From assembly GCF_008710285.1 (NCBI RefSeq), contig NZ_VYQF01000003.1:310001-374000 (forward strand): 64,000 nucleotides of DNA, written 5' to 3'. Position 1 is the first letter of the stretch. Each line of letters starts with the position of its first letter. Of the stretch, positions 47,137 through 57,446 are shown piece after piece. Position numbers and translations under genes: made by a program. The stretch is from Ginsengibacter hankyongi (lineage in GTDB: Bacteria; Bacteroidota; Bacteroidia; Chitinophagales; Chitinophagaceae). The notes below the pieces were generated by a model that was not told where the DNA came from, made no database searches, and saw only the letters and a program-made list of their open reading frames with translations.

Positions 47137-48660
47137 TTAATTATCTTTTACATTCAACGCCGCAATTATCGCTTTAAAACTTTCCAACCCCGCCTCTAAA
47201 TTCTCTACAATATCCAAAGCCAATACATCAGGATCGGGAAGATTATCTAAATCAGCCAATGATTTGTCTTTCAGCCAGGTGATGTCTAAAGATGTTTTAT
47301 CTCTTGCAATGATTTCATCATAAGTAAATTTTCTCCAGCGGCCTTCGGGTCCTGAGCCTGTCGAAGGATCTTCACTGAATGTTTCTTTTCGTTTATGCCT
47401 GTTCGTTGGGTTATAACATTCTATAAAATCTTTTAAGTCATCCAGCTTTAGTGGATTCTTTTTTAAAGTATGGTGAATGTTGGTTCGGTAATCATATATC
47501 CAGACTTCTTTTGTCCATGGGTCTTTGCTGGATGGCTTGCCATCCCAGAATAAAACATTTGCTTTTACTCCATTGGCGTAAAATATTCCCGTGGGTAAAC
47601 GCAGTATTGTATGTAGGTCGGTCGTTTCGAGTAATTTCTTCCTAACGGTTTCTCCTGCCCCACCTTCAAACAAAACATTATCTGGCAATACAACTGCAGC
47701 CAGGCCAGTTGTTTTAAGCATTGACTTTATATGCTGTACAAAGTTGAGTTGCTTGTTGCTGGTAGTCACCCAAAAATCCTGGCGGTTATAAGTGAGTTCT
47801 TCTTTCTCCTGTTCGCCTTCTTCGTTAGTAAAAGTCATGCTGCTTTTTTTACCAAAGGGGGGATTGGCCAGTACATAATCATATCTTGTTTCAGATGCTG
47901 CAATTAATGAATCGTTGGGAGATATCATTACATGATCACTGTCTATATCACCAATATTATGCAGGAACAAATTCATTAAGGCAAGCCTTCTCGTACCTGC
48001 TACAATTTCATTTCCGAAAAACGTATCGTACTTCAAAAATTTCTTTTGTTCCTGGTCGAGGGTATAATTATTTTCATCGGTAATAAAATCATAAGATGCT
48101 AAAAAGAAACCTCCGGTGCCACATGCAGGGTCAGCTATCGTTTTCATGGGCTCGGGGCGCAAACATTCCACCATGCATTTTATCAACGCTCTCGGGGTAA
48201 AGTATTGGCCGGCGCCGCTCTTGGTATCTTCTGCATTTTTCTCCAGCAGGCCTTCATAAATATCGCCTTTGTCTTTTACGCCCATCAGCACCCATTGCTC
48301 CGCATTAATGAGCGCAATGAGTTTATATAATTTTGCCGGGTCTGTTATTTTATTCTGGCTCTTGGTAAATATTTGTCCGAGTATGCCTTTTTCTTTTGCG
48401 AGTTCCCGAAGCAGGTTATTATAATGCACTTCCAGTGCATCACCACTTTTATTGGTAAGTGTTTCCCATGAATAAGCTGCGGGAATGGGCATCGTACGGT
48501 TATATGGGGGCTTATTATATTCATCTGCCATTTTTAAAAAAAGCAAATAAGTAAGCTGCTCTAAATAATCACCATAGCCTACCCCATCATCACGAAGGGT
48601 GTTGCAGAAGGCCCATACTTTAGAGACAATGCTAGAAGTGCTTGTTGTATTGTTGCTCAT
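47137..48660 (-). CDS. hsdM: Type I restriction-modification DNA methyltransferase subunit HsdM
   Basis: 507 residues, full length. Adenine N6-methyltransferase that pairs with HsdS. N-terminal helical domain (SKVWAFCNTLRDDGVGYGDYLEQLTYLLFLKMADE), SAM motif DPACGTGG (177-184) and the catalytic NPPF (266-269, ANPPFGKKS). Near residue 432 the sequence EDPSTGSGPEGRWRK carries an in-frame repeat-derived peptide (see the repeat at 47351). This is the only intact hsdM; hsdS and hsdR lie 6 to 10 kb upstream, with three other modules in between. Confidence 0.95.
   Translation of the reverse strand: MSNNTTSTSSIVSKVWAFCNTLRDDGVGYGDYLEQLTYLLFLKMADEYNKPPYNRTMPIPAAYSWETLTNKSGDALEVHYNNLLRELAKEKGILGQIFTKSQNKITDPAKLYKLIALINAEQWVLMGVKDKGDIYEGLLEKNAEDTKSGAGQYFTPRALIKCMVECLRPEPMKTIADPACGTGGFFLASYDFITDENNYTLDQEQKKFLKYDTFFGNEIVAGTRRLALMNLFLHNIGDIDSDHVMISPNDSLIAASETRYDYVLANPPFGKKSSMTFTNEEGEQEKEELTYNRQDFWVTTSNKQLNFVQHIKSMLKTTGLAAVVLPDNVLFEGGAGETVRKKLLETTDLHTILRLPTGIFYANGVKANVLFWDGKPSSKDPWTKEVWIYDYRTNIHHTLKKNPLKLDDLKDFIECYNPTNRHKRKETFSEDPSTGSGPEGRWRKFTYDEIIARDKTSLDITWLKDKSLADLDNLPDPDVLALDIVENLEAGLESFKAIIAALNVKDN
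47351..47367. repeat. REP-like repeat inside hsdM
   Basis: CCTGAGCCTGTCGAAGG is the core of a widely dispersed repeat that encodes the peptide DPSTGSGPEG in this frame. The same family occurs as a tandem pair in hsdR (57774-57821). The downstream part CTTCGGGTCCTGAGCC makes it partly palindromic. Confidence 0.65.
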
Positions 48661-48682
48661 TGCGTTAATTGTTTTGAACTAT

Positions 48683-48898
48683 GATTTTATTGATTTTTTG
48701 ATTAACTATGATTTTTTATATTCAACTATTATAGGAATCTTTTTGATAGACTTTGATTTTGAATTTTTATAAAATCATAGTATTCATTCTATCATTTTTA
48801 ATCATAGTTCAGACGATTTTATTGATTTTTTGATGAACTATGATTCTTTTTTTAGATAATCATAGTATTCATTCAATCATTTTAATCATAGTCCAGAT
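48683..48898. repeat. Direct-repeat array flanking the GxxExxY cassette, left side
   Basis: A ~41-bp unit of form AATCATAGTATTCATT...AATCATAGTTCAGAC occurs at 48773-48814 and 48858-48898, and a 20-bp unit GATTTTATTGATTTTTTGAT at 48683-48702 and 48815-48834, both followed by AACTATGATT. A third 41-bp copy lies on the other side of the GxxExxY gene at 49283-49325. The array is extremely AT-rich and fills the 225-bp hsdM leader. Confidence 0.75.
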
Positions 48899-49281
48899 TT
48901 TTTAGGTTTCATCATTCTTTTAAATTCGAGGCTTCTGGCGCCAAAATTTATTAGTAATCCTATATCCATCTTATACGCTTCGAGGTAATTGATCGCCTGT
49001 GCCAATTGCACATCATCTAATTGAATGATTGCTTTCAACTCAACCATGATCTTTCCTTCAACAAAAAAATCTACCCTGCGTGTTCCAATATTTTCCCCTT
49101 TATAAAATATTTCCATTTCATGTTCCCTGCTATACGAAATTTTTTGCTGATTCATTTCTACAGCCAATGCCCGCTGGTAAATTACTTCCTGGAAACCGTT
49201 ACCAAGAATGCAGTGTACTTCCATACAACAACCAATAATTCTTCCCGTTAGCTCACTTTCAGGATATTTTTCATTAATCAT
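48886..49281 (-). CDS. GxxExxY family protein
   Basis: 131 residues. Name-giving motif in LGNGFQEVIYQRAL (G-F-Q-E-V-I-Y), and a PD-(D/E)xK-like region RRVDFFVEGKIMVELKAI with Asp and Glu-x-Lys, plus AQAINYLEAYKMDIGLLINFG. A nuclease-like fold is inferred; the role is unproven. The last few codons overlap the repeat copy at 48884-48898. Direct repeats stand on both sides and pieces of hsdM lie beyond them, so the gene and its repeats behave like one mobile cassette. Confidence 0.9.
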   Translation of the reverse strand: MINEKYPESELTGRIIGCCMEVHCILGNGFQEVIYQRALAVEMNQQKISYSREHEMEIFYKGENIGTRRVDFFVEGKIMVELKAIIQLDDVQLAQAINYLEAYKMDIGLLINFGARSLEFKRMMKPKKSGL

Positions 49282-49328: not shown

Positions 49329-49404
49329 TGCCATAGCCTACACCACCATCGCGAAGGGTGTTGCAAAAGGCCCATACTTTGGAGACGATTTGATTATTTG
49401 ACAT
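49329..49404 (-). pseudogene. N-terminal scrap of a second hsdM gene
   Basis: Minus-strand ATG at 49404, then MSNNQIVSKVWAFCNTLRDG and GVGYG, which matches residues 1-30 of the intact HsdM except that TTSTSS is reduced to Q; the reading then runs into the repeat and stops. The nucleotide match to the start of intact hsdM (about 48575-48660) is close but imperfect, so this is an older or different allele, not a fresh duplication. It begins 2 bp after the reverse transcriptase stop, the spacing of a former operon gene. Confidence 0.85.
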
Positions 49405-49406
49405 TA

Positions 49407-50975
49407 TTATGATTTCCTAATTAATTTATTTAAAATGTTCCAATGCCTTTTGGTTTGTTGCTTAATTTTATTATTAATCATAATATTGGAAGCTTTATAA
49501 GCGTAAGACAAAAAATTTCCCCAGTTATATGAATCAGATTTGATAAATTTTTTCTCCTCTTCATTCCAGGTATATTTCCTCGTTCTTTTTGCTCCCTTAT
49601 AAGAAAACCTTTTGAATATTCTTCTTTTAAAAATCACTCCACTGTTAACACAAAATCTTCTGTTTGCGTAATGTTTTGCTCTTCGAATAGTACGTTTCAT
49701 TTTTCTATAATATCCAGATAAACTGGCAGATTTTAGAAATACGTGAGAACCATTAAATTCAAAGCCCAAATAAATTAAGTTCTTATTCCAATTAATTACT
49801 CCTTCAAATTCTTGACCGCAAAGAAGTTTGTCATTTTCACGTTTAAAGTGAAAAATTTGTGTCTTATTCTTTTGAATTTCTAAGTCATAGTTTGCAATTT
49901 CTCTATAAATTATTTCTTTTAAATCATCTTTTACTTTCAGTGGGCAAACTATTACTATATCATCGGAATATCGCCTATAAATTCCTTTGTGTAATGAAGT
50001 GAATTTATTTATTATTTTATCAAAGTGTAGAAGATATATGTTGGCTAAAACTGAACTAATTGGTGATCCCTGAGGAATACCAAAATTTCGACGAACAACA
50101 GTTCCATTTTTAAGTCTTTTTGTTTTTGATGGTTGCAATAGTTTACCCTTTAAGTTTAGAAATTCATCTTTACTGCAAAAGGCGATAGCATTTTGGTTTC
50201 TCAAATAACTTATTCTATCAACCTTTTTTTGTTTAATTTCTAAAGGTTGACCAAGCCTATTAATTTTTCTTGTATAAATTTTATCCTTGAATTCCTCAAA
50301 GATGTCCACAATATCAACGTAACTAAATCGCGTTATGTTTTTAAATACATTAAAATGATCTGGCGGTAGCTTTTCATTTTCGCCCTCCTTCCTGATAACT
50401 TCGGCCCAGGTTTTTCTAAGCTTTGTGTGGTTAAGATTGTCAAAAAAGCAGGATATATCAAAGGCAATTACCGCAAAATCATTTTCCTTATAATTTACTA
50501 TGTGTTTAAAAACATCGTTCGCGAATTCAATATTACACTTATTAGCATAATCTGGTTTTTTTGAATCTATTGGAATTGTGCGGTACGCATTTACAACTTC
50601 ATTTAGATTGTATTCGGGATCTTTTATTTTATTCTCATAGCAATCTGAAAGGAATTTTGTGTAATAGCTGAAGATTAATGAATCAAGATGGCTGGCATAA
50701 AACAATTCTCTTTTTTTTACATCAGCCTTCCTCAAAGGCTTGTTTTGGTTTCTATAATGATCATGAACTTTCCCGTCGTTACTTGAATAAACTTTTCGAA
50801 ACTTCTTGACTTTTGAGGTTTTATGGATAAAGGGTAAAAAAGAATGTTTTGCAACCTTCTCAGGGTCTGTAACATATTTTTCAATCCATTTGTAACGGTC
50901 ACTATAATTTAAAGGTAATCCGATATGTGGGTACCTCTTTAGTCTAAACCAATCCTTTTGTTCCTTTTCTTTCAT
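49407..50975 (-). CDS. Reverse transcriptase, resembling antiviral Drt2 (DRT2 family)
   Basis: 522 residues. Palm-domain motifs are complete: AFDISCFFDN at 171-180 (Asp173, Asp179), GIPQGSPIS at 299-307, and YSDD at 336-339 followed by NKTQIFHFKREN. The N-terminal part WFRLKRYPHIGLPL, SFLPFIHKTSKVKKFRK, FYASHLDSLIFSYY and NKCNIEFANDVF resembles Drt2-type antiviral reverse transcriptases (pattern recognition, not a search). No retron VTG motif, no intron maturase domain. A 400-bp structured leader precedes it, as DRT2 needs. Group II intron RT is rejected; another UG-group RT is the main alternative. Confidence 0.8.
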   Translation of the reverse strand: MKEKEQKDWFRLKRYPHIGLPLNYSDRYKWIEKYVTDPEKVAKHSFLPFIHKTSKVKKFRKVYSSNDGKVHDHYRNQNKPLRKADVKKRELFYASHLDSLIFSYYTKFLSDCYENKIKDPEYNLNEVVNAYRTIPIDSKKPDYANKCNIEFANDVFKHIVNYKENDFAVIAFDISCFFDNLNHTKLRKTWAEVIRKEGENEKLPPDHFNVFKNITRFSYVDIVDIFEEFKDKIYTRKINRLGQPLEIKQKKVDRISYLRNQNAIAFCSKDEFLNLKGKLLQPSKTKRLKNGTVVRRNFGIPQGSPISSVLANIYLLHFDKIINKFTSLHKGIYRRYSDDIVIVCPLKVKDDLKEIIYREIANYDLEIQKNKTQIFHFKRENDKLLCGQEFEGVINWNKNLIYLGFEFNGSHVFLKSASLSGYYRKMKRTIRRAKHYANRRFCVNSGVIFKRRIFKRFSYKGAKRTRKYTWNEEEKKFIKSDSYNWGNFLSYAYKASNIMINNKIKQQTKRHWNILNKLIRKS

Positions 50976-50989
50976 TCAAAAAAAAGTGA

Positions 50990-51377
50990 GTAGTGAAGAC
51001 CCAATGCGAAGCTATTTGCTTTTAGAATTGGTTGCCCAATTCCTGAAATATGCATGCTTTTACGACACAGAAATGTCGCTCCGACTCAAGCTGGGTAGCG
51101 AAATATTAATTGTACATTTATTAATAAATTCAATAATGAACCTATATAAATATTCAATCGTAAAGGTATTCCCGTCAGTTATTACACTTCTGGGGCATCT
51201 TATAGCCGTAGTTGGAATTGAAATTAATTCAATCCTCCCTTGGATTTCTGAAATACCTTTTCCTCAACAGTTTTTCTTTCGAGCATGTTGAGCTTAACAA
51301 GACTTTCGTCTATACCATAAAACGCATACTTCGGCTCTTCAACTACTCACACTATTTTATATTAACTTAAAATGTTG
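50990..51377 (-). ncRNA. Candidate template ncRNA of the DRT2-like reverse transcriptase
   Basis: Non-coding leader on the RT strand. Possible promoter: TTG at 51412-51414, 21-nt spacer, TATTTTG at 51384-51390. Hairpins on the minus strand: GAATTGG-GCAA-CCAATTC at 51025-51042 (7-bp stem with a GNRA tetraloop), CGACA-loop-TGTCG at 51063-51078, and CTCAAC-loop-GTTGAG at 51263-51292. A frame of exactly 40 codons without a stop (51227-51346) runs between TGA (51347-51349) and TAA (51224-51226). In DRT2 an upstream ncRNA serves as a rolling-circle template. Boundaries here are estimates. Confidence 0.4.
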
Positions 51378-51429
51378 CAATTTCAAAATACAATGTATAA
51401 TTTTTTTACTTCAACTCACACACAGGCCA

Positions 51430-51603
51430 CTCAAACGTCTTCTCTAAAATACTTTACTTAATTCCACGGCCTGTTGCCGAGTATGGGTTATTACAATCTA
51501 ATTCCAGTTCATCACTACTTTTATTGGTAAGTGCCGGCCACAAATACGCTGCAGGTATAGGCATTACACAGTTATACGGCAGCTTGCTATATGTTTGTTG
51601 CAT
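51430..51603 (-). pseudogene. Decayed hsdM/hsdS scrap
   Basis: On the minus strand ATG 51603 gives YSKLPYNCVMPIPAAYLWPALTNKSSDELE, matching residues about 48-78 of HsdM (NKPPYNRTMPIPAAYSWETL ... SGDALEVHY). Within ~30 bp the DNA switches to the 3' end of an hsdS gene: HTRQQAVELSKVF... corresponds to the SLQQAETLRQSILKKAF end of the intact HsdS. So it is a fused remnant of two genes, in an order not expected of either. It begins 16 bp after the HNH gene. Confidence 0.75.
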
Positions 51604-51619
51604 TACTATTCCTCATAAT

Positions 51620-52597
51620 TTAGATTAATCCTAGTTCTTTAGAAATATCGGTTGTTAACTTAGATAATACTCGCTTATGGTAGTCTTCTTCATCTATATA
51701 ATTACTCACAATTAACTTCTTTACTTCTTCTTTATTTTTAAACAGGCTTCCAGAAAAACGAGCATAAAGTTCATTTATATATTCTTCATTATATACAATA
51801 GATTTCTGTATCAGTTCATCCACATAGTCTTTATGCATATTATAAAGTTTGGTCAATTGAAATGTGGTAATGTTTTCAAATGCTGCTTTAACCTTTTCTC
51901 CATTCCAGGTTGATAAATTCCCTTTCCTAAATCGTATTCGGTATGCTTCGGACTTTCCATTAATAAATCCAATGTTTTTAGGCTTAATTGAAAAAACAAT
52001 ATTTTGTCCAAATCCTTCAAGGTATGGGTGGATGTTTTTTTTAAGACTAAATTCTTTGAACCCCTTAAAATTAGAATTACAAACATGACAACTTGGTACA
52101 AGATTATAAAAACTTAAAGCCAAATAGGGATATGCAGATTTTGAAAAGAAATGATCATATTCGAATCTAGTTCCTTTTATAGAATCATTCCCTAAAAGGA
52201 AAGTGTAGGTCCGATTGCAATACGGGCAAACTGTAATGCCTATTTTTTTTGCTAATTCATACGCTCTCCATTTATCATAATCTTCATAATAGAAAGCATT
52301 TAATATCTCCGCTTTCAATGCATCATTTAATATGTGTCCATGAGTGGAATCAAATAATTGTGCAAATGCACTTAATTCCTTCGGAGGTGCAGTTATAATA
52401 GAAAAGCCTGACGAATCTTTAAGAAGGCTATCTAACAGGTCTTGAAACATTGCCACAATGCCTGGATTCCCTGCGTGTTGACTAATACGCTTTCTTAACC
52501 TAATTTCAATGTTCCATTCTTTGCCAACTTTTTTTGTTAGGTTATTATAATGAAACTTCAAAATTTCTTGTTCATTGTTTAATTGAATTTTAACCAT
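51620..52597 (-). CDS. HNH endonuclease, PtuB/Septu-like
   Basis: 325 residues. HNH treble-clef with paired Cys CPYC (124-127) and CHVC (170-173), the catalytic pair at FEYDHFFSK (Asp148-His149), and Asn165/Asn174 in NLVPSCHVCN. Same arrangement as the HNH proteins that partner AAA ATPases in Septu and in some retron systems. Start codon is 1 bp after the stop of the ATPase gene. Expected to cut nucleic acid when the ATPase senses infection; activity here is inferred. Confidence 0.85.
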   Translation of the reverse strand: MVKIQLNNEQEILKFHYNNLTKKVGKEWNIEIRLRKRISQHAGNPGIVAMFQDLLDSLLKDSSGFSIITAPPKELSAFAQLFDSTHGHILNDALKAEILNAFYYEDYDKWRAYELAKKIGITVCPYCNRTYTFLLGNDSIKGTRFEYDHFFSKSAYPYLALSFYNLVPSCHVCNSNFKGFKEFSLKKNIHPYLEGFGQNIVFSIKPKNIGFINGKSEAYRIRFRKGNLSTWNGEKVKAAFENITTFQLTKLYNMHKDYVDELIQKSIVYNEEYINELYARFSGSLFKNKEEVKKLIVSNYIDEEDYHKRVLSKLTTDISKELGLI

Positions 52598-52598
52598 G

Positions 52599-54539
52599 CT
52601 AAAGTTTTAAATGCTTTTCTATTTTATCCAATCTTTCATGAAGGTTCAAATTAAAACGATCATTATACATTTGAAAAAGCTTATGTCTTAAAATTGGCTC
52701 CCCTATTTGCTGAATAATTTTTCTAATCATCTCTCTTTTTTCCATGGGTATTTCGTATCCTGAGGACAGTTCTTTGATGACATCATCTATCTTCTCAGAC
52801 GCAAAATCCCCTATTAATCCATTTTTAATAAAGAAAGAGTCTGATAACAACGTATAAATATTTGAGGCAAATGTTTCTTTCTGATCGTTCAAACTATCTT
52901 TTACAATGGTTTTTGTTATTATAGTTTGTTTTTCTTCAGAATATGAAGAAGTTTTTTCTAAAAAAATTGTACAGTCATTTGGAAGATCAGAAGCGGGGAT
53001 TGGAGAATTTGTTGTAAGAATAATTTGAATACTTCTCTTAACTCCATTTACCATCTTTGAGTAGACTCGTGGCAAATAATCTAATAAAAGATAAATAAAC
53101 TTTTTTTGCCATGCTGGATGGAGATAGATATCTCCTTCATCTATCAAAACAATTAAATTCCTATTCAATTCGGTTATTACTTCCCCATTCGATAAAGAAT
53201 AAAATCTTGAATATATATTAAACAAAGCTTTTTCTCCACTACTTAAGCTTCGCCATTTAAAATTAATGAAAGGCTTCAACCGATATGAATTTCGATAGTT
53301 GTTGTAGAATGTTTTAAAATCTTCTTTTGATGTTCCCGTCACCTTTACTGCCAAGATATTCAAATCACCAACAAGTAAATCATCTTTTGCGACTAACTCA
53401 GGAAGAAGTTTTATAAAATTCTTTATCCCTTCAATCCATTGGAAATGATTTTTATCGAAAGAAAAACTTAAACCATTAGATTGGTCTTTTATATCATCTA
53501 ATATTCTTAAAGCAACTTCAGTTAGAGATTGTCTTTCTTTTGATGATTTATATTTAACACTAAATTTAATTTTTTCCGCAATTGCCCGATAGTGTGTAGC
53601 TAATTCCAGCAAGAAATTTAAGAGGCAACTTGCAATGAAATAGTTAGCTACTCTGGTTTTGCTATTTTTTGTTTTAATGTATTTTTTAAATACCTCAAGC
53701 AACTCCAAAAAATCATTCAAAATACCGTACTCTTCCAATATTTGTTTTTCCAATGCGGAAAAGCCAAGGTCATAATCAACCTCTTTTTTGGAAGTTAAAA
53801 AAATATATTCTGGCAACTCAAAGGGTATAAACTTTGCATGGATATATCTATTAACAAAGGATATTTGTCTTTCAATCTCTTCAAAAAGATGTATATCAAT
53901 TTCCCGTTGATTTGTTTCATTATTGATGAGTCTGTTCTCTACATTTTTTAAATAATCATTCCTTATCAAAAAATTTGTCGATACCTCATAACCGCCCTTA
54001 AGTTCACTCTCTAATTCACCATCAAAAATGTTAGAAAAACTTATAAAATCCGTACTTGCAAATTCATTAATTGTAGGGATGCTAGATTTTACTTCAATAA
54101 CCTTACCCTCATAAGTCTTCGTTTCTGTTTTATTAACTAGCTTTTCAATCTTAATTTTGAAATCATTGAGATTATGCTTTTTTATATCAAGCTGGTCAAA
54201 ATGATAGACAATAACGTTTTCATTATTTTTTAGGGCAATTATTAATGGGTTCCTTATTCCTCCTGCACCATCAACAAAATTGTTTTTGATAAGCTTAAGT
54301 AAAGACGACTTGCCAGTTCCATTTTCTCCGATTATTGAAGTCACATTTAAAATTTTAGCAACATCTTCGACATCATTTTGAAGTCTAAAAAAATTTTCGA
54401 TGTAATAAGGATTTTCACGAACAATCAATTCTTTAGATTCAGTTTTGTATGAAAACCGGTATTTCCCACCAAAATTAATATCCTGATTACTAACTCTTAT
54501 TTCAGGAGCAGATAAAAAAAAGAGGTATAATATTTCCAT
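52599..54539 (-). CDS. AAA ATPase, defence partner of the HNH protein (PtuA-like)
   Basis: 646 residues. Walker A GENGTGKS at 71-78 (SIIGENGTGKSSLL), an ABC-type signature SSGEKALFNIYSRF, and Walker B near 462-468 (LIVLIDEGDIYLHPAWQKKF) followed by the His-loop ILTTNSPIPASDLP; this is the SMC/AAA_15-like group with a long middle helix domain. Directly upstream of the HNH gene (1-bp gap) and 2 bp after hsdS. PtuA and PtuB are the nearest named match; other AAA-HNH defence pairs are possible. Confidence 0.85.
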   Translation of the reverse strand: MEILYLFFLSAPEIRVSNQDINFGGKYRFSYKTESKELIVRENPYYIENFFRLQNDVEDVAKILNVTSIIGENGTGKSSLLKLIKNNFVDGAGGIRNPLIIALKNNENVIVYHFDQLDIKKHNLNDFKIKIEKLVNKTETKTYEGKVIEVKSSIPTINEFASTDFISFSNIFDGELESELKGGYEVSTNFLIRNDYLKNVENRLINNETNQREIDIHLFEEIERQISFVNRYIHAKFIPFELPEYIFLTSKKEVDYDLGFSALEKQILEEYGILNDFLELLEVFKKYIKTKNSKTRVANYFIASCLLNFLLELATHYRAIAEKIKFSVKYKSSKERQSLTEVALRILDDIKDQSNGLSFSFDKNHFQWIEGIKNFIKLLPELVAKDDLLVGDLNILAVKVTGTSKEDFKTFYNNYRNSYRLKPFINFKWRSLSSGEKALFNIYSRFYSLSNGEVITELNRNLIVLIDEGDIYLHPAWQKKFIYLLLDYLPRVYSKMVNGVKRSIQIILTTNSPIPASDLPNDCTIFLEKTSSYSEEKQTIITKTIVKDSLNDQKETFASNIYTLLSDSFFIKNGLIGDFASEKIDDVIKELSSGYEIPMEKREMIRKIIQQIGEPILRHKLFQMYNDRFNLNLHERLDKIEKHLKL

Positions 54540-54541
54540 AT

Positions 54542-55825
54542 CTAAATAATTTTAAACCTATCTCCCGTAAACGCCTTCTTTAAAATACTTTGTCTTAATG
54601 TCTCTGCCTGTTGCAGGCTTTGGGTTATGCTTTCTTCCATTTTATCGGCTACGCTGAGACGGTTTTCGATTTCTTGAACGATTTTGTTTTGTTCTTCAAT
54701 GGAACAATAGGGAATTAAGCAAGATTTTAATTGAGTCGTATTAATTCTTGGTCTTGTAGCCCCGTGAACTTCTTCTACGAGTTGATTGTAAACATTTTTA
54801 GTTGATAGAAAATAAGCCAAGTATCTATTATCAATCGTCTTTGGCGAAACCCTTATACAAAAGCAATCTGCTTTGTTGATAGCCTTGATTATAAACTTTG
54901 GTAAAATAGTTACTCGAATTTCTCCGATAATAAATGAAGAAAAAATAATATCCCCGGAACTAACTGTATGCTTTTGAATTGATAAATATTTTTCATCAGA
55001 GACAAATGTTTTGTATTCATCTTTAAAGGTCAATACTCCAATATTTTCAAGGCGTATTATTCTAATACCATCTTCTACATAATCAACACTTTTAAGATTA
55101 GATCCGAACGGACCATCAAATACTTTATCTGCCAATTCTCCCAGTCTAATCAATTTCCAACCTTTCGGCAATTCACCTTCTTTTACATTTTCATTTGTTA
55201 GCTTTCCCTCAAATGCCCATTTTAATACAGATTGCCGGTAACTTTTTAATTGCTGCTGTACGGCTTTTAATTGTTCTATGCCCTTGTCTAATTCACTAAA
55301 TAGTTCTTCTATTTTGGAAACAATGGCTTGTTGGGTAGGTTTGGGAGGAAGAGGAATTGTTACTTTGTCGATAAAACCTGAACTAATTCCACCTTGTGCA
55401 GCACCTCTAAAATCTTCTAGTATTTCTTTGTTTCCTTTTGATGACCATATTTTATAAAAGGCAAATCGAGGCAAAACATCATCTGAAACTCTTACAATAA
55501 ATACATGTTCATTTATAACTGCAAAATCAAAAGGAAAATTATTATTTACAAAAGAAGCTTTGCCTGTGGTAGCTCCATCTTTTACAACAATTATATCATC
55601 TTTTTGAATAACTCCCTTTTTCATTTGCTCAGCAAAATCTTTAGGCACAAACTTTATTTTCGAAAATTTGAATCCACCATTAAAGTCAAGATGTTCTGCA
55701 CCGATACTCGGAATTCCAGAGATAATTCCTTGCACACCGCCTTTCGGTCTTTTACCACTTTCAAGTTCTTTGCATACTTCTCTCAACTTCACGCACTTCC
55801 AGTCTTTTGGTAATTCTTTACTCAT
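54542..55825 (-). CDS. hsdS: Type I restriction-modification specificity subunit HsdS
   Basis: 427 residues with two target recognition domains. TRD1 about 1-160 (LPKDWKCVKLREVCKELESGKRPKGG), helical spacer at about 165-210 (QQAIVSKIEELFSELDKGIEQLKAV), TRD2 about 220-400 (LPKGWKLIRLGELADKVFDGPFG) and the second helix region NKIVQEIENRLSVADKMEESI ending QSLQQAETLRQSILKKAFTG. Both TRDs are intact. Its start ATG overlaps the end of the three-Cys-motif gene by 4 bp; the AAA gene follows after 2 bp. Confidence 0.95.
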   Translation of the reverse strand: MSKELPKDWKCVKLREVCKELESGKRPKGGVQGIISGIPSIGAEHLDFNGGFKFSKIKFVPKDFAEQMKKGVIQKDDIIVVKDGATTGKASFVNNNFPFDFAVINEHVFIVRVSDDVLPRFAFYKIWSSKGNKEILEDFRGAAQGGISSGFIDKVTIPLPPKPTQQAIVSKIEELFSELDKGIEQLKAVQQQLKSYRQSVLKWAFEGKLTNENVKEGELPKGWKLIRLGELADKVFDGPFGSNLKSVDYVEDGIRIIRLENIGVLTFKDEYKTFVSDEKYLSIQKHTVSSGDIIFSSFIIGEIRVTILPKFIIKAINKADCFCIRVSPKTIDNRYLAYFLSTKNVYNQLVEEVHGATRPRINTTQLKSCLIPYCSIEEQNKIVQEIENRLSVADKMEESITQSLQQAETLRQSILKKAFTGDRFKII

Positions 55826-56544
55826 AATTCTTCCACATTAAGTTCCGGCATTTCATCATAAGTTTGGCCGTTTAGCATCCTTCCTGTTTTCTTTTTATTA
55901 GTTCCTCCCCATTGTTTAAAGAAAAAAGCGACATTGGCGGCGGTGCATTGATCCATAATATCCAACACCCAATCTGCATCCATTGGCCTTGCCTTTCTCC
56001 CGCTTTCTCCGCCAACTATTACCCAATCAATATTTTGCAGATTCATATTATGCAGATGCCCTATCAAAGGCTCACAGGAAAGAAATTTAGTTCTTGCATT
56101 TGTTTGCCGTAGCAGATCAATACGGCTCATCACTCTTGAATCTTCTACAGATACACCCATCCATATATTATGAGTCCAGTTCAACTCATTATGTATTTCA
56201 AGCAACCTGTCTGCCCTCTTTGTTAATACCTGGAAAGTGTGTTGCCCGTTTTCATTCATTACTTTAAATACTTTTTGTATAAATTCCAGCGGTATATCTT
56301 TATGAAATAAATCACTCATTGAATTAACAAAAACCACCTTTTGCTTTTTCCATGTATAAGGAATGTTGAGTGCATCCTCATGCGTTCTTACCTTGAATCC
56401 ATCTTTATATTTTTCAACACCCATTGCTTTTAAGCGCCGGGACATAACTTCTGCATAACAAAATTTACAACCGGCAGAGATTTTAGTACAACCGGTCGTT
56501 GGATTCCACGTCATTTCTGTCCATTCAATAGATGATTGTGCCAT
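55822..56544 (-). CDS. Phage Gp37/Gp68-like three-Cys-motif protein (DUF5131)
   Basis: 240 residues. The three-Cys motif CTKISAGCKFCYA (Cys19, Cys26, Cys29) looks like a radical-SAM-like iron-sulfur site, followed by FQVLTKRADRLLEIHNEL, GVSVEDSRVMSRIDLLRQT and KFLSCEPLIGHL. Members accompany a partner protein TcmP, here encoded 2 bp upstream. The pair is found in phages and restriction islands, but its biochemical role is not established. Embedded between tcmP and hsdS in one translational chain. Confidence 0.93.
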   Translation of the reverse strand: MAQSSIEWTEMTWNPTTGCTKISAGCKFCYAEVMSRRLKAMGVEKYKDGFKVRTHEDALNIPYTWKKQKVVFVNSMSDLFHKDIPLEFIQKVFKVMNENGQHTFQVLTKRADRLLEIHNELNWTHNIWMGVSVEDSRVMSRIDLLRQTNARTKFLSCEPLIGHLHNMNLQNIDWVIVGGESGRKARPMDADWVLDIMDQCTAANVAFFFKQWGGTNKKKTGRMLNGQTYDEMPELNVEEL

Positions 56545-56546
56545 GG

Positions 56547-57446
56547 TTATATTTTTTTAATTATTTGATTAGCGATCTTTATTCCGGTTTGAACATTCGA
56601 CGCAAAAACAAAATGAAAGAGTGGAACACCATTTCGGTTATCCAATCTTAGTGGTTCTTCTGTAACATATTTCCAAACACCTTTCATCCTTTCAACATAA
56701 ATTTTTGCAATCATTTCTATAGGCTTTGAAATCTTACTTATTGACTCCTCTTCTCCAAACAGTGTTGTTTTTAATTCCTGTTTATAAAACACTCCCTTTA
56801 TTTCTTCTTCTGATAAACCAAAAAAAGATTGAAGTTTTTCTGTGTATTTCAATTCACCTGCTTTATCCAATAACCTATTAACTATAATACCTGTCGGAAC
56901 CAAAATCCAAACATCCGAACGAGTATCTTTTAAAGCTTTAATTGAACTCCAATCTATCTGCATCCCAAATGGATCGAGAAATACTAAAGCGGCATATTTA
57001 TCAGATTTTAAAGCAGCAGCTAATTCGATGATCCACTTGTTGGCATCGCCTGATCTAAAAGCAATATTTCTTTTTGAAAGATCAACTTTTTTGCCAAGCT
57101 TATTCTTCAGCTTTTCTAAAGATTCTTCTTTTTTATCAATGAAATAATAATAATCAAACGCTAAATCATTTTCTAAAGTTAATACTCTTTCTGCCGCACC
57201 TTTGTAAACCCTCTCTTCCTCCTCTGTTATTTTTAATTGCTCGTATAAATCTGTAATTTGTTTTGCCTTTTCTTTTGATCCGCTACCGGCAAAACCGTCA
57301 AAATATATTGTTTTCCATTGAGGAAATCTTCTCATGATTGTGAGGTAAGCTTTCACATACTTTGCAAAAGCATCTAGTTTCTTTTCTGTCCATGGACCTC
57401 CCCAATCACCTGTCGGTTCACTCAATAAATTTGTGTTCCATGTCAT
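56547..57446 (-). CDS. tcmP: Three-Cys-motif partner protein TcmP
   Basis: 299 residues. Opens GDWGGPWTEKKLDAFAKYVKAYL, then KTIYFDGFAGSG, a SAM-like acidic region, and the strand ALVFLDPFGMQIDWSSIKAL, all typical of TcmP; the fold suggests a Rossmann methyltransferase-like domain. Always linked to a Gp37/68 three-Cys-motif gene, as here. Its ATG overlaps the end of hsdR by 4 bp, so it is translated with it. Role unknown. Confidence 0.92.
   Translation of the reverse strand: MTWNTNLLSEPTGDWGGPWTEKKLDAFAKYVKAYLTIMRRFPQWKTIYFDGFAGSGSKEKAKQITDLYEQLKITEEEERVYKGAAERVLTLENDLAFDYYYFIDKKEESLEKLKNKLGKKVDLSKRNIAFRSGDANKWIIELAAALKSDKYAALVFLDPFGMQIDWSSIKALKDTRSDVWILVPTGIIVNRLLDKAGELKYTEKLQSFFGLSEEEIKGVFYKQELKTTLFGEEESISKISKPIEMIAKIYVERMKGVWKYVTEEPLRLDNRNGVPLFHFVFASNVQTGIKIANQIIKKI

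Follow-up and report, generated by a model that had tools for sequence, protein, structure and literature searches.

A divergent DRT2 locus of Ginsengibacter hankyongi with a predicted antisense repeat gene adapted to Bacteroidota

The reverse transcriptase, its leader and their surroundings

The window (the whole stretch of DNA analysed, 64,000 nt) carries on its minus strand a reverse transcriptase (RT) gene preceded by a structured leader (Table 1). An earlier note on this DNA had called the gene a DRT2-like RT with a YSDD motif, and both parts of that description were confirmed. The PADLOC Drt2 model scored 457 bits on the protein (2.3e-137), with RT_UG17 as runner-up family at 78 bits. 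Against the NCBIfam Drt2 equivalog NF041746 the protein reached 355 bits, which is below the curated cut-off of 390 and identifies it as a divergent DRT2. KpDRT2 entries topped a sequence search of solved structures, and when the AlphaFold model of the RT (mean pLDDT 89.3, 39 aligned sequences) was compared with structures by Foldseek, KpDRT2 (9c0i) was the best match at E 1.4e-38, the next entry being DRT9 at E 2.0e-11. That is, the RT is closest to Drt2 in both sequence and fold. Pfam detected RVT_1 alone, as for a single RT gene without effector domain; the invariant aspartates are present, the frame is open and the genome holds one copy (search at E 0.001). Viral contigs scanned with the window RT alone gave no match. 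Judged by sequence, the locus is a well-supported divergent DRT2.

Table 1. Positions of the features of the DRT2 unit within the window
Feature	Position	Strand	Basis
DRT2-like reverse transcriptase, 522 aa, YSDD	49407..50975	-	ORF list, PADLOC, Foldseek
Putative ncRNA, about 365 nt	50986..51350	-	ends set by terminal stem, not RNA mapping
Terminal stem, 5' arm GUGAGUAGUUGAAG	51337..51350	-	duplex energies
Terminal stem, 3' arm CUUCACUACUCAC	50986..50998	-	duplex energies
Handle stem, conserved, 5' strand GAAGUAUGCGU ('KYA' codons of the earlier note)	51322..51332	-	RNAalifold, 13 leaders
Handle stem, 3' strand	51045..51055	-	RNAalifold, 13 leaders
Sense frame of the earlier note, 40 codons; real, not template	51227..51346	-	ORF check, homologue alignment, stretch counts
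Predicted template, 150 nt	51106..51255	-	leader comparison, end-word scan, DNA-only scan
Jump motif 1, UAUUUC (template 5' end, copied)	51250..51255	-	end-word scan
Jump motif 2, UAUUUC (landing site immediately outside template)	51100..51105	-	end-word scan
Predicted Neo repeat unit, 50 codons LIVHLLINSIMNLYKYSIVKVFPSVITLLGHLIAVVGIEINSILPWISEI, without stop across junction	51106..51255	+	DNA-only scan
In-frame ATG after junction	51136..51138	+	sequence
-33 TTG; upstream of -7 only in concatemer	51240..51242	+	sequence
-7 element TACATTTA, 5/6 to TAnnTTTG, 20 nt past TTG across junction	51113..51120	+	sequence

The leader had been described as structured and non-coding, and three analyses bear this out. 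Its 377-nt fold has a free energy of -114 kcal/mol (z = -6.3), a stability equalled by none of 100 shuffles. RNAalifold found 24 pairs in 13 leaders, 11 of them with two-sided changes, and such compensatory changes were seen in the handle stem (51332-51322 with 51055-51045). Across 15 leaders, the ncRNA ends paired at -26.3 kcal/mol with their own partners versus -18.3 kcal/mol with swapped ones (0 of 20,000 permutations). Rfam at gathering scores gave no match anywhere within the 64,000 nt. These patterns point to a conserved, structured ncRNA with paired ends upstream of the RT, and we predict that it is transcribed.

Degraded copies of a type I restriction-modification system flank the DRT2 unit at 51433-51600 and 49330-49404 (minus strand). 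The upstream remnant is an hsdM fragment (77% to hsdM 48414-48520), a flanking remnant matches hsdS at its 3' end (80% to 54569-54628), and a remnant of the hsdM N-terminus lies directly downstream. The unit thus sits in a scarred restriction island. Between hsdS and DRT2 lies an ATPase and HNH pair (51620-54539, minus strand), a PtuA/PtuB-like candidate system listed by PADLOC as PDC-M62A/B, while a DUF5131 protein and its three-Cys-motif partner TcmP (PDC-M41) are encoded upstream of hsdS (55822-57446, minus strand). After a gene for a GxxExxY (PD-D/EXK-like) protein (48886-49281, minus strand) come imperfect, AT-rich repeats that contain AATCATAGTT (48680-48850, minus strand).

The predicted template, its jump motifs and a candidate promoter at the joint

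Related loci were fetched from public genomes, and the window leader was aligned with those of 17 near relatives along the ncRNA. Antisense to the aligned template region, one frame was open in 15 of the 18 leaders, and in these the distance between conserved anchors was 136, 139, 145, 148, 127 or 118 nt, in every case 1 modulo 3; in L017, L018 and L020 it was 134 nt and a different frame was open. A scan of 16 leaders for words shared by the two template ends, in some of which other candidates scored equally, found at homologous places on the coding strand GAAATA (window, L014, L016, L019), GTAAAATA (L021, L022) and AATT(A) (L005, L025, L026), each with the frame open through the joint. The window unit shows the DRT2 pattern of a repeated end motif, a length divisible by three and an antisense frame open across the joint, which is predicted to read ...TTTCTGAAATA/TTAATTGTACAT... 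when 150-nt units stand head to tail (the slash marks the joint). A sense frame of this unit is also open. CAA and AAAT pairs were rejected as the clade A jump motif because the resulting lengths, worked out by hand from conserved anchors, are not divisible by three; TATTTC/TATTTC gives 150. The KpDRT2 motifs ACA-1 and ACA-2 are not found: ACA is absent at the template 5' edge, and both ends read TATTTC. In 13 clade A leaders, exceptions included, the two jump motifs matched over 5.31 nt within a genome versus 4.39 nt between genomes (2 of 10,000 permutations). The predicted jump motif differs by clade and tends to agree within a genome.

In a second approach, template ends were picked by DNA features alone, namely microhomology of at least 4 nt and TTG-N19/20-TAnnTTTG spanning the joint, which avoids choice by coding result. 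The -7 box had to match at 6/6 (strict) or 5/6 (looser). The 109 loci were reduced to 93 leaders by dropping L002-L004, which are not RT loci, L098, L104 and L107, in which a regular expression found no RT frame, and ten duplicate or partial loci (L005-L008, L015, L097, L099, L100, L103, L105); for far-upstream controls 92 remained, one slice being too short. Since the leaders are related, the counts that follow are not independent events. At the strict level 16 of the 93 leaders passed on the antisense strand; all 17 candidates had lengths divisible by three (17/0/0 modulo 3), and the best candidate was open in 16 of 16. The window is outside these 16, its -7 box being 5/6. Strict controls (passing/divisible/open) gave 1/0/0 for the sense strand, 3/1/0 and 7/2/0 for RT gene reverse slices and 2/0/0 and 2/0/0 for forward slices, all of 93, and 2/1/1 (reverse) and 2/1/0 (forward) of 92 far upstream. 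At the looser level the antisense strand gave 51/42/35 and the sense strand 32/9/4 of 93, with candidate lengths of 0/1/2 modulo 3 numbering 47/7/5 and 11/19/16, respectively. Looser RT gene controls were 40/22/3 and 48/17/1 in reverse and 27/12/12 and 32/20/20 forward, the latter often open because these slices are coding; far-upstream controls were 23/8/5 (reverse) and 31/16/10 (forward) of 92. An earlier, less tight scan had given strict results of 19/17/16 antisense versus 4/0/0 sense. With ATG also required, 46 of 93 antisense strands, 10 of 93 sense strands and 41 of 930 dinucleotide shuffles passed.

Once the criteria had been settled, a later set of loci was collected, with RT-start finding slightly changed; 16 of its 46 new loci were dropped for a 60-mer in common with known leaders, leaving 30. 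It gave 5/5/5 antisense and 1/0/0 sense at the strict level, and 10/8/7 and 8/3/1 at the looser level, where controls were 11/4/0 and 11/3/0 (RT gene reverse) and 8/5/3 (far-upstream reverse). Some looser-level controls are not low, as in the far-upstream forward slices (31 of 92 pass) and the far-upstream reverse slices of the later set (8 of 30).

By clade, the top candidate was open, in frame and at the homologous place in 10 of 16 (A), 9 of 11 (B), 8 of 9 (C) and 10 of 11 (D) leaders, 37 of 47 loci together. All 37 have the 20-nt spacing, which the score favours. Resolved units span 108 to 183 nt (n=50), and the jump words vary between clades (GGTAT, GAAT, GAAAT, TTAGAA, AGATT, CAAAT). Homologous motifs in L017 and L018 yield a unit of 148 nt, which breaks the frame, with a TAG at the L018 joint, and the motifs of L020 have only three bases in common. 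All three keep the promoter region and lose the frame at or soon after the joint; possibly the joint adds bases, or a one-repeat Neo protein is made. The 15 clade E leaders scanned (L009, L074, L077-L082, L084, L085, L087, L089-L092) had no consistent solution under the Bacteroidota promoter rule: one top candidate was open (L081), at a place and motif not common to the clade. Clade E RTs are DRT2-like, about 34-37% identical to the window RT, and their leaders carry antisense ORFs. For most of clade H and the non-Bacteroidota loci L033, L037, L039 and L068 the scan returned no template solution, and L034 was ambiguous. A search of viral contigs for the exact clade D joint found none.

Promoters of Bacteroidota have a -33 box, TTTG or TTG, with its own spacing. 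In Flavobacterium psychrophilum, TAnnTTTG is the -7 consensus for the primary sigma factor (PMC9723704). The window joint reads CTTGGATTTCTGAAATA/TTAATTGTACATTTA, that is, TTG, 20 nt and TACATTTA. In the chromosome the two halves stand in reversed order, with the -7 element at 51113 and TTG at 51240. Perfect cases occur in clade D relatives, for example TTTGGAAATTGGTAT/AGAAATTGTTATCTTTG. The joint would thus assemble a candidate promoter of Bacteroidota type (TTG-N20-TAnnTTTG-like) together with a start codon, and not a sigma70 promoter. Five candidates were listed for each leader when joints were scanned for sigma70 promoters; the best of these summed to 10 out of 12 for the window, 9 each for L014 and L050, and 11 for L053, the last outside the homologous place; TTGACA-N17-TATAAT as in KpDRT2 was not found at the window joint (best 10/12 among the candidates listed). 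The scan gave no sigma70 joint solution for L013 and L093 (14 leaders in the scan) and no consistent one for the non-Bacteroidota relatives L033, L037, L039, L034 and L068. As a positive control, it recovered an open 117-nt unit with TTGACA-N17-TATAAT and TGT in the DRT2s of viral contigs L094, L095 (promoter 12/12 in both) and L096 (11/12).

The predicted repeat protein and a two-copy array

Protein-level signs were sought in 50 resolved units, hand-picked from the clade scan as the top candidate or, for L028, L029, L038 and L040, the second choice; L044 (an open top candidate, but three bases in common), L034 (two open frames), L073 and L081 (both open elsewhere) were left out. An open frame was a condition for entering the 50, so openness does not count as a finding here; ATG and hydrophobicity played no part in the picking. 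An in-frame ATG lies within codons 5-18 in 50 of 50 units versus 45% of codon-shuffled ones. GRAVY is positive in every unit, with a mean of 0.97 versus 0.15 (sd 0.39) in shuffled open units (1,000 of 19,488 shuffles). The amino-acid identity of Neo is under weak constraint: pN/pS is 0.71, and differences at codon positions 1/2/3 number 397/380/494 (45 pairs). Codon-level conservation was set aside as strong proof, its signal being weak. Some sense frame is open through the concatemer in 19 of 50 units (38%), the window's own unit included, versus 34% after codon shuffling, about as expected from the antisense codons.

Capnocytophaga leadbetteri DSM 22902 (L023:2077-2344) carries two exact copies of a 132-nt unit in its leader, joined as ...GCATTAAT/ATTTCATAG... 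exactly at the predicted jump point. The joint uses ATTT, the word at both template ends, where the clade A alignment would put it; in the chromosome it forms TTTG-N20-TATATTTG, a perfect promoter match, and the antisense Neo frame continues through it. Twenty Capnocytophaga genomes were searched with the neighbouring DNA; three matched, two over the full length, C. leadbetteri and a congener (L112) with the unit present once. In the single-copy leader, direct repeats of at least 4 nt form 227 pairs, and two of these pairs have a spacing of 132 nt, so random duplication would rarely strike the joint word. The array could have arisen by slippage, by capture of a concatemer or from cDNA reads that entered the assembly, and the last two require the RT reaction. 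That the RT of this clade can write its product into the chromosome, and that the array is a captured concatemer and not an ordinary tandem duplication, we consider conceivable, though rather doubtful. If true, the system would be rewriting its own template, and traces of past gene synthesis would survive as natural fossils in Bacteroidota genomes; were the array instead an assembly artefact built from reads of concatemeric cDNA, it would show directly that such cDNA is made in the native host.

Interpretation and known systems

With a probability of roughly 0.86, we read the locus as a phage-defence system of divergent DRT2 type that is adapted to Bacteroidota and whose antisense 150-nt concatemer would code for Neo. 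The RT would copy the 150-nt segment into cDNA complementary to the ncRNA; the cDNA end GAAATA would re-pair with the second TATTTC, and copying would restart to give a concatemer. Once double-stranded, the concatemer would offer at each joint a promoter for the host primary sigma factor, and the resulting hydrophobic, stop-less repeat protein would arrest the cell.

The earlier note had placed the template repeat in the sense frame 51346-51227 and had given the repeat of the studied example as about 120 nt. The frame exists exactly as it said, 40 open codons between TGA (51349-51347) and TAA (51226-51224), containing YAFYGIDESLVKLNMLERKT, and the KpDRT2 repeat is indeed 120 nt (PMC12039810). 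As the template it fails on strand, place and size. Neo of KpDRT2 is encoded antisense to the ncRNA (PMC12039810), so this frame cannot be neo by the KpDRT2 mechanism; it lies mostly outside the predicted template (51255-51106), shares 29 of its 120 nt and meets a stop inside it. Exactly 40 codons is an ordinary length, since the six frames of the window hold 27 such stop-to-stop stretches and 558 of at least 40 codons. The frame is not conserved either: the homologous stretch is stop-free in five of the 13 clade A leaders (window, L014, L017, L025, L026), but translations show a stop in the other eight, including the 55%-identical Flavobacterium homologue L024 (on the same contig as L005), and the interval from the conserved stem to the frame end is 105, 97, 97, 111, 103, 105, 109, 93, 93, 90, 90, 90 and 81 nt, with no constant remainder modulo 3. 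We reject this placement and give it next to no chance. The earlier note was right about the machine and wrong about the strand and the segment; an endless product by a template jump, which it also foresaw, very probably holds for the template proposed here. The alpha-helical nature it expected of this product finds a partial counterpart in the AlphaFold model of a single antisense window repeat, all one helix at low confidence (pLDDT 69, pTM 0.32).

The plus-strand ORF 50986-51291 might instead encode a conventional small antisense protein, 101 aa long with a GTG start. Length and frame are conserved between the jump motifs, not at the ends of this ORF, homologues' antisense ORFs vary in length and position, and the promoter halves stand in the wrong chromosomal order, which leaves this account very improbable. 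A decayed, inactive system, suggested by the flanking hsdM and hsdS remnants and compatible with our reading for its ancestors, also seems improbable given the open RT frame with its invariant aspartates, the intact RNA stems and both jump motifs. There is a small chance that base composition and RNA structure produce the open antisense frame as a side effect, with the cDNA non-coding as in DRT9 or DRT10. The weak codon constraint and the misfit of some relatives fit such an origin; divisibility by three with an open frame in all 16 strict cases and in all 5 of the later set, ATG in 50 of 50 units and hydrophobicity far above that of shuffled open units do not.

Should our reading hold, a gene that comes into being only through reverse transcription would adapt to the transcription code of its host. 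It suggests a rule for finding neo genes concealed in other phyla (ends that match, a host promoter at the joint, a length divisible by three) from which exact, cheap predictions follow for each genome. The DRT2 preprint reports difficulty in annotating Neo proteins of divergent clades and proposes that other mechanisms may operate there (PMC11100668), and the authors of the later paper speculate that cDNAs could differ widely among diverse DRT2s and that the promoters rebuilt could be of other, phage-specific kinds (PMC12039810). The divergent set examined here resolves once the promoter of the host phylum is sought and the jump motif is allowed to vary. Among the PMC matches listed from the open-access literature we found no paper on DRT2 neo genes in Bacteroidota, and 'bacteroid' is absent from the main texts of PMC11100668, PMC12596737 and PMC12632851.

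KpDRT2 of Klebsiella pneumoniae (PDB 9c0i) copies a 120-nt template repeatedly, jumping between two ACA motifs; its units have lengths that are multiples of three, a 17-bp spacing of TTGACA and TATAAT arises only at the joint, and the cDNA becomes double-stranded after phage infection (PMC12039810). As far as the available text of its descriptions goes (PMC12039810, PMC11100668), the locus resembles it in RT fold, single gene and upstream ncRNA, in the short repeated motif flanking the template, in a unit divisible by three with an antisense frame free of stops, and in the predicted rebuilding of a promoter at the joint, with a start codon directly after it and a predicted hydrophobic repeat protein. 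It differs in an RT about 100 residues longer, in a repeat of 150 instead of 120 nt, in TATTTC (in relatives, read on the coding strand, GGTAT, GAAT, AATT and further words) instead of ACA, and in a predicted TTG-N20-TAnnTTTG-like promoter instead of TTGACA-N17-TATAAT. In addition, a long 5'-3' stem clamps the ncRNA ends here, of which the accessible KpDRT2 text makes no mention. DRT9, which we take to be UG28, is likewise a Class 2 DRT with an RT and an ncRNA template and forms the second-best fold group, far behind DRT2 in the Foldseek comparison. According to the portion of the source available, its cDNA is a homopolymer made by protein priming (PMC12483538). Repeat synthesis on an RNA template is also common to DRT10 (UG17) and to telomerase, which brings the DNA end back into alignment on a short, repeated motif of the template (PMC12039810). 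DRT10 differs in its protein-primed tandem-repeat cDNA, as described in the accessible part of PMC12632851, and its UG17 model reaches 78 bits on the window RT where Drt2 reaches 457.
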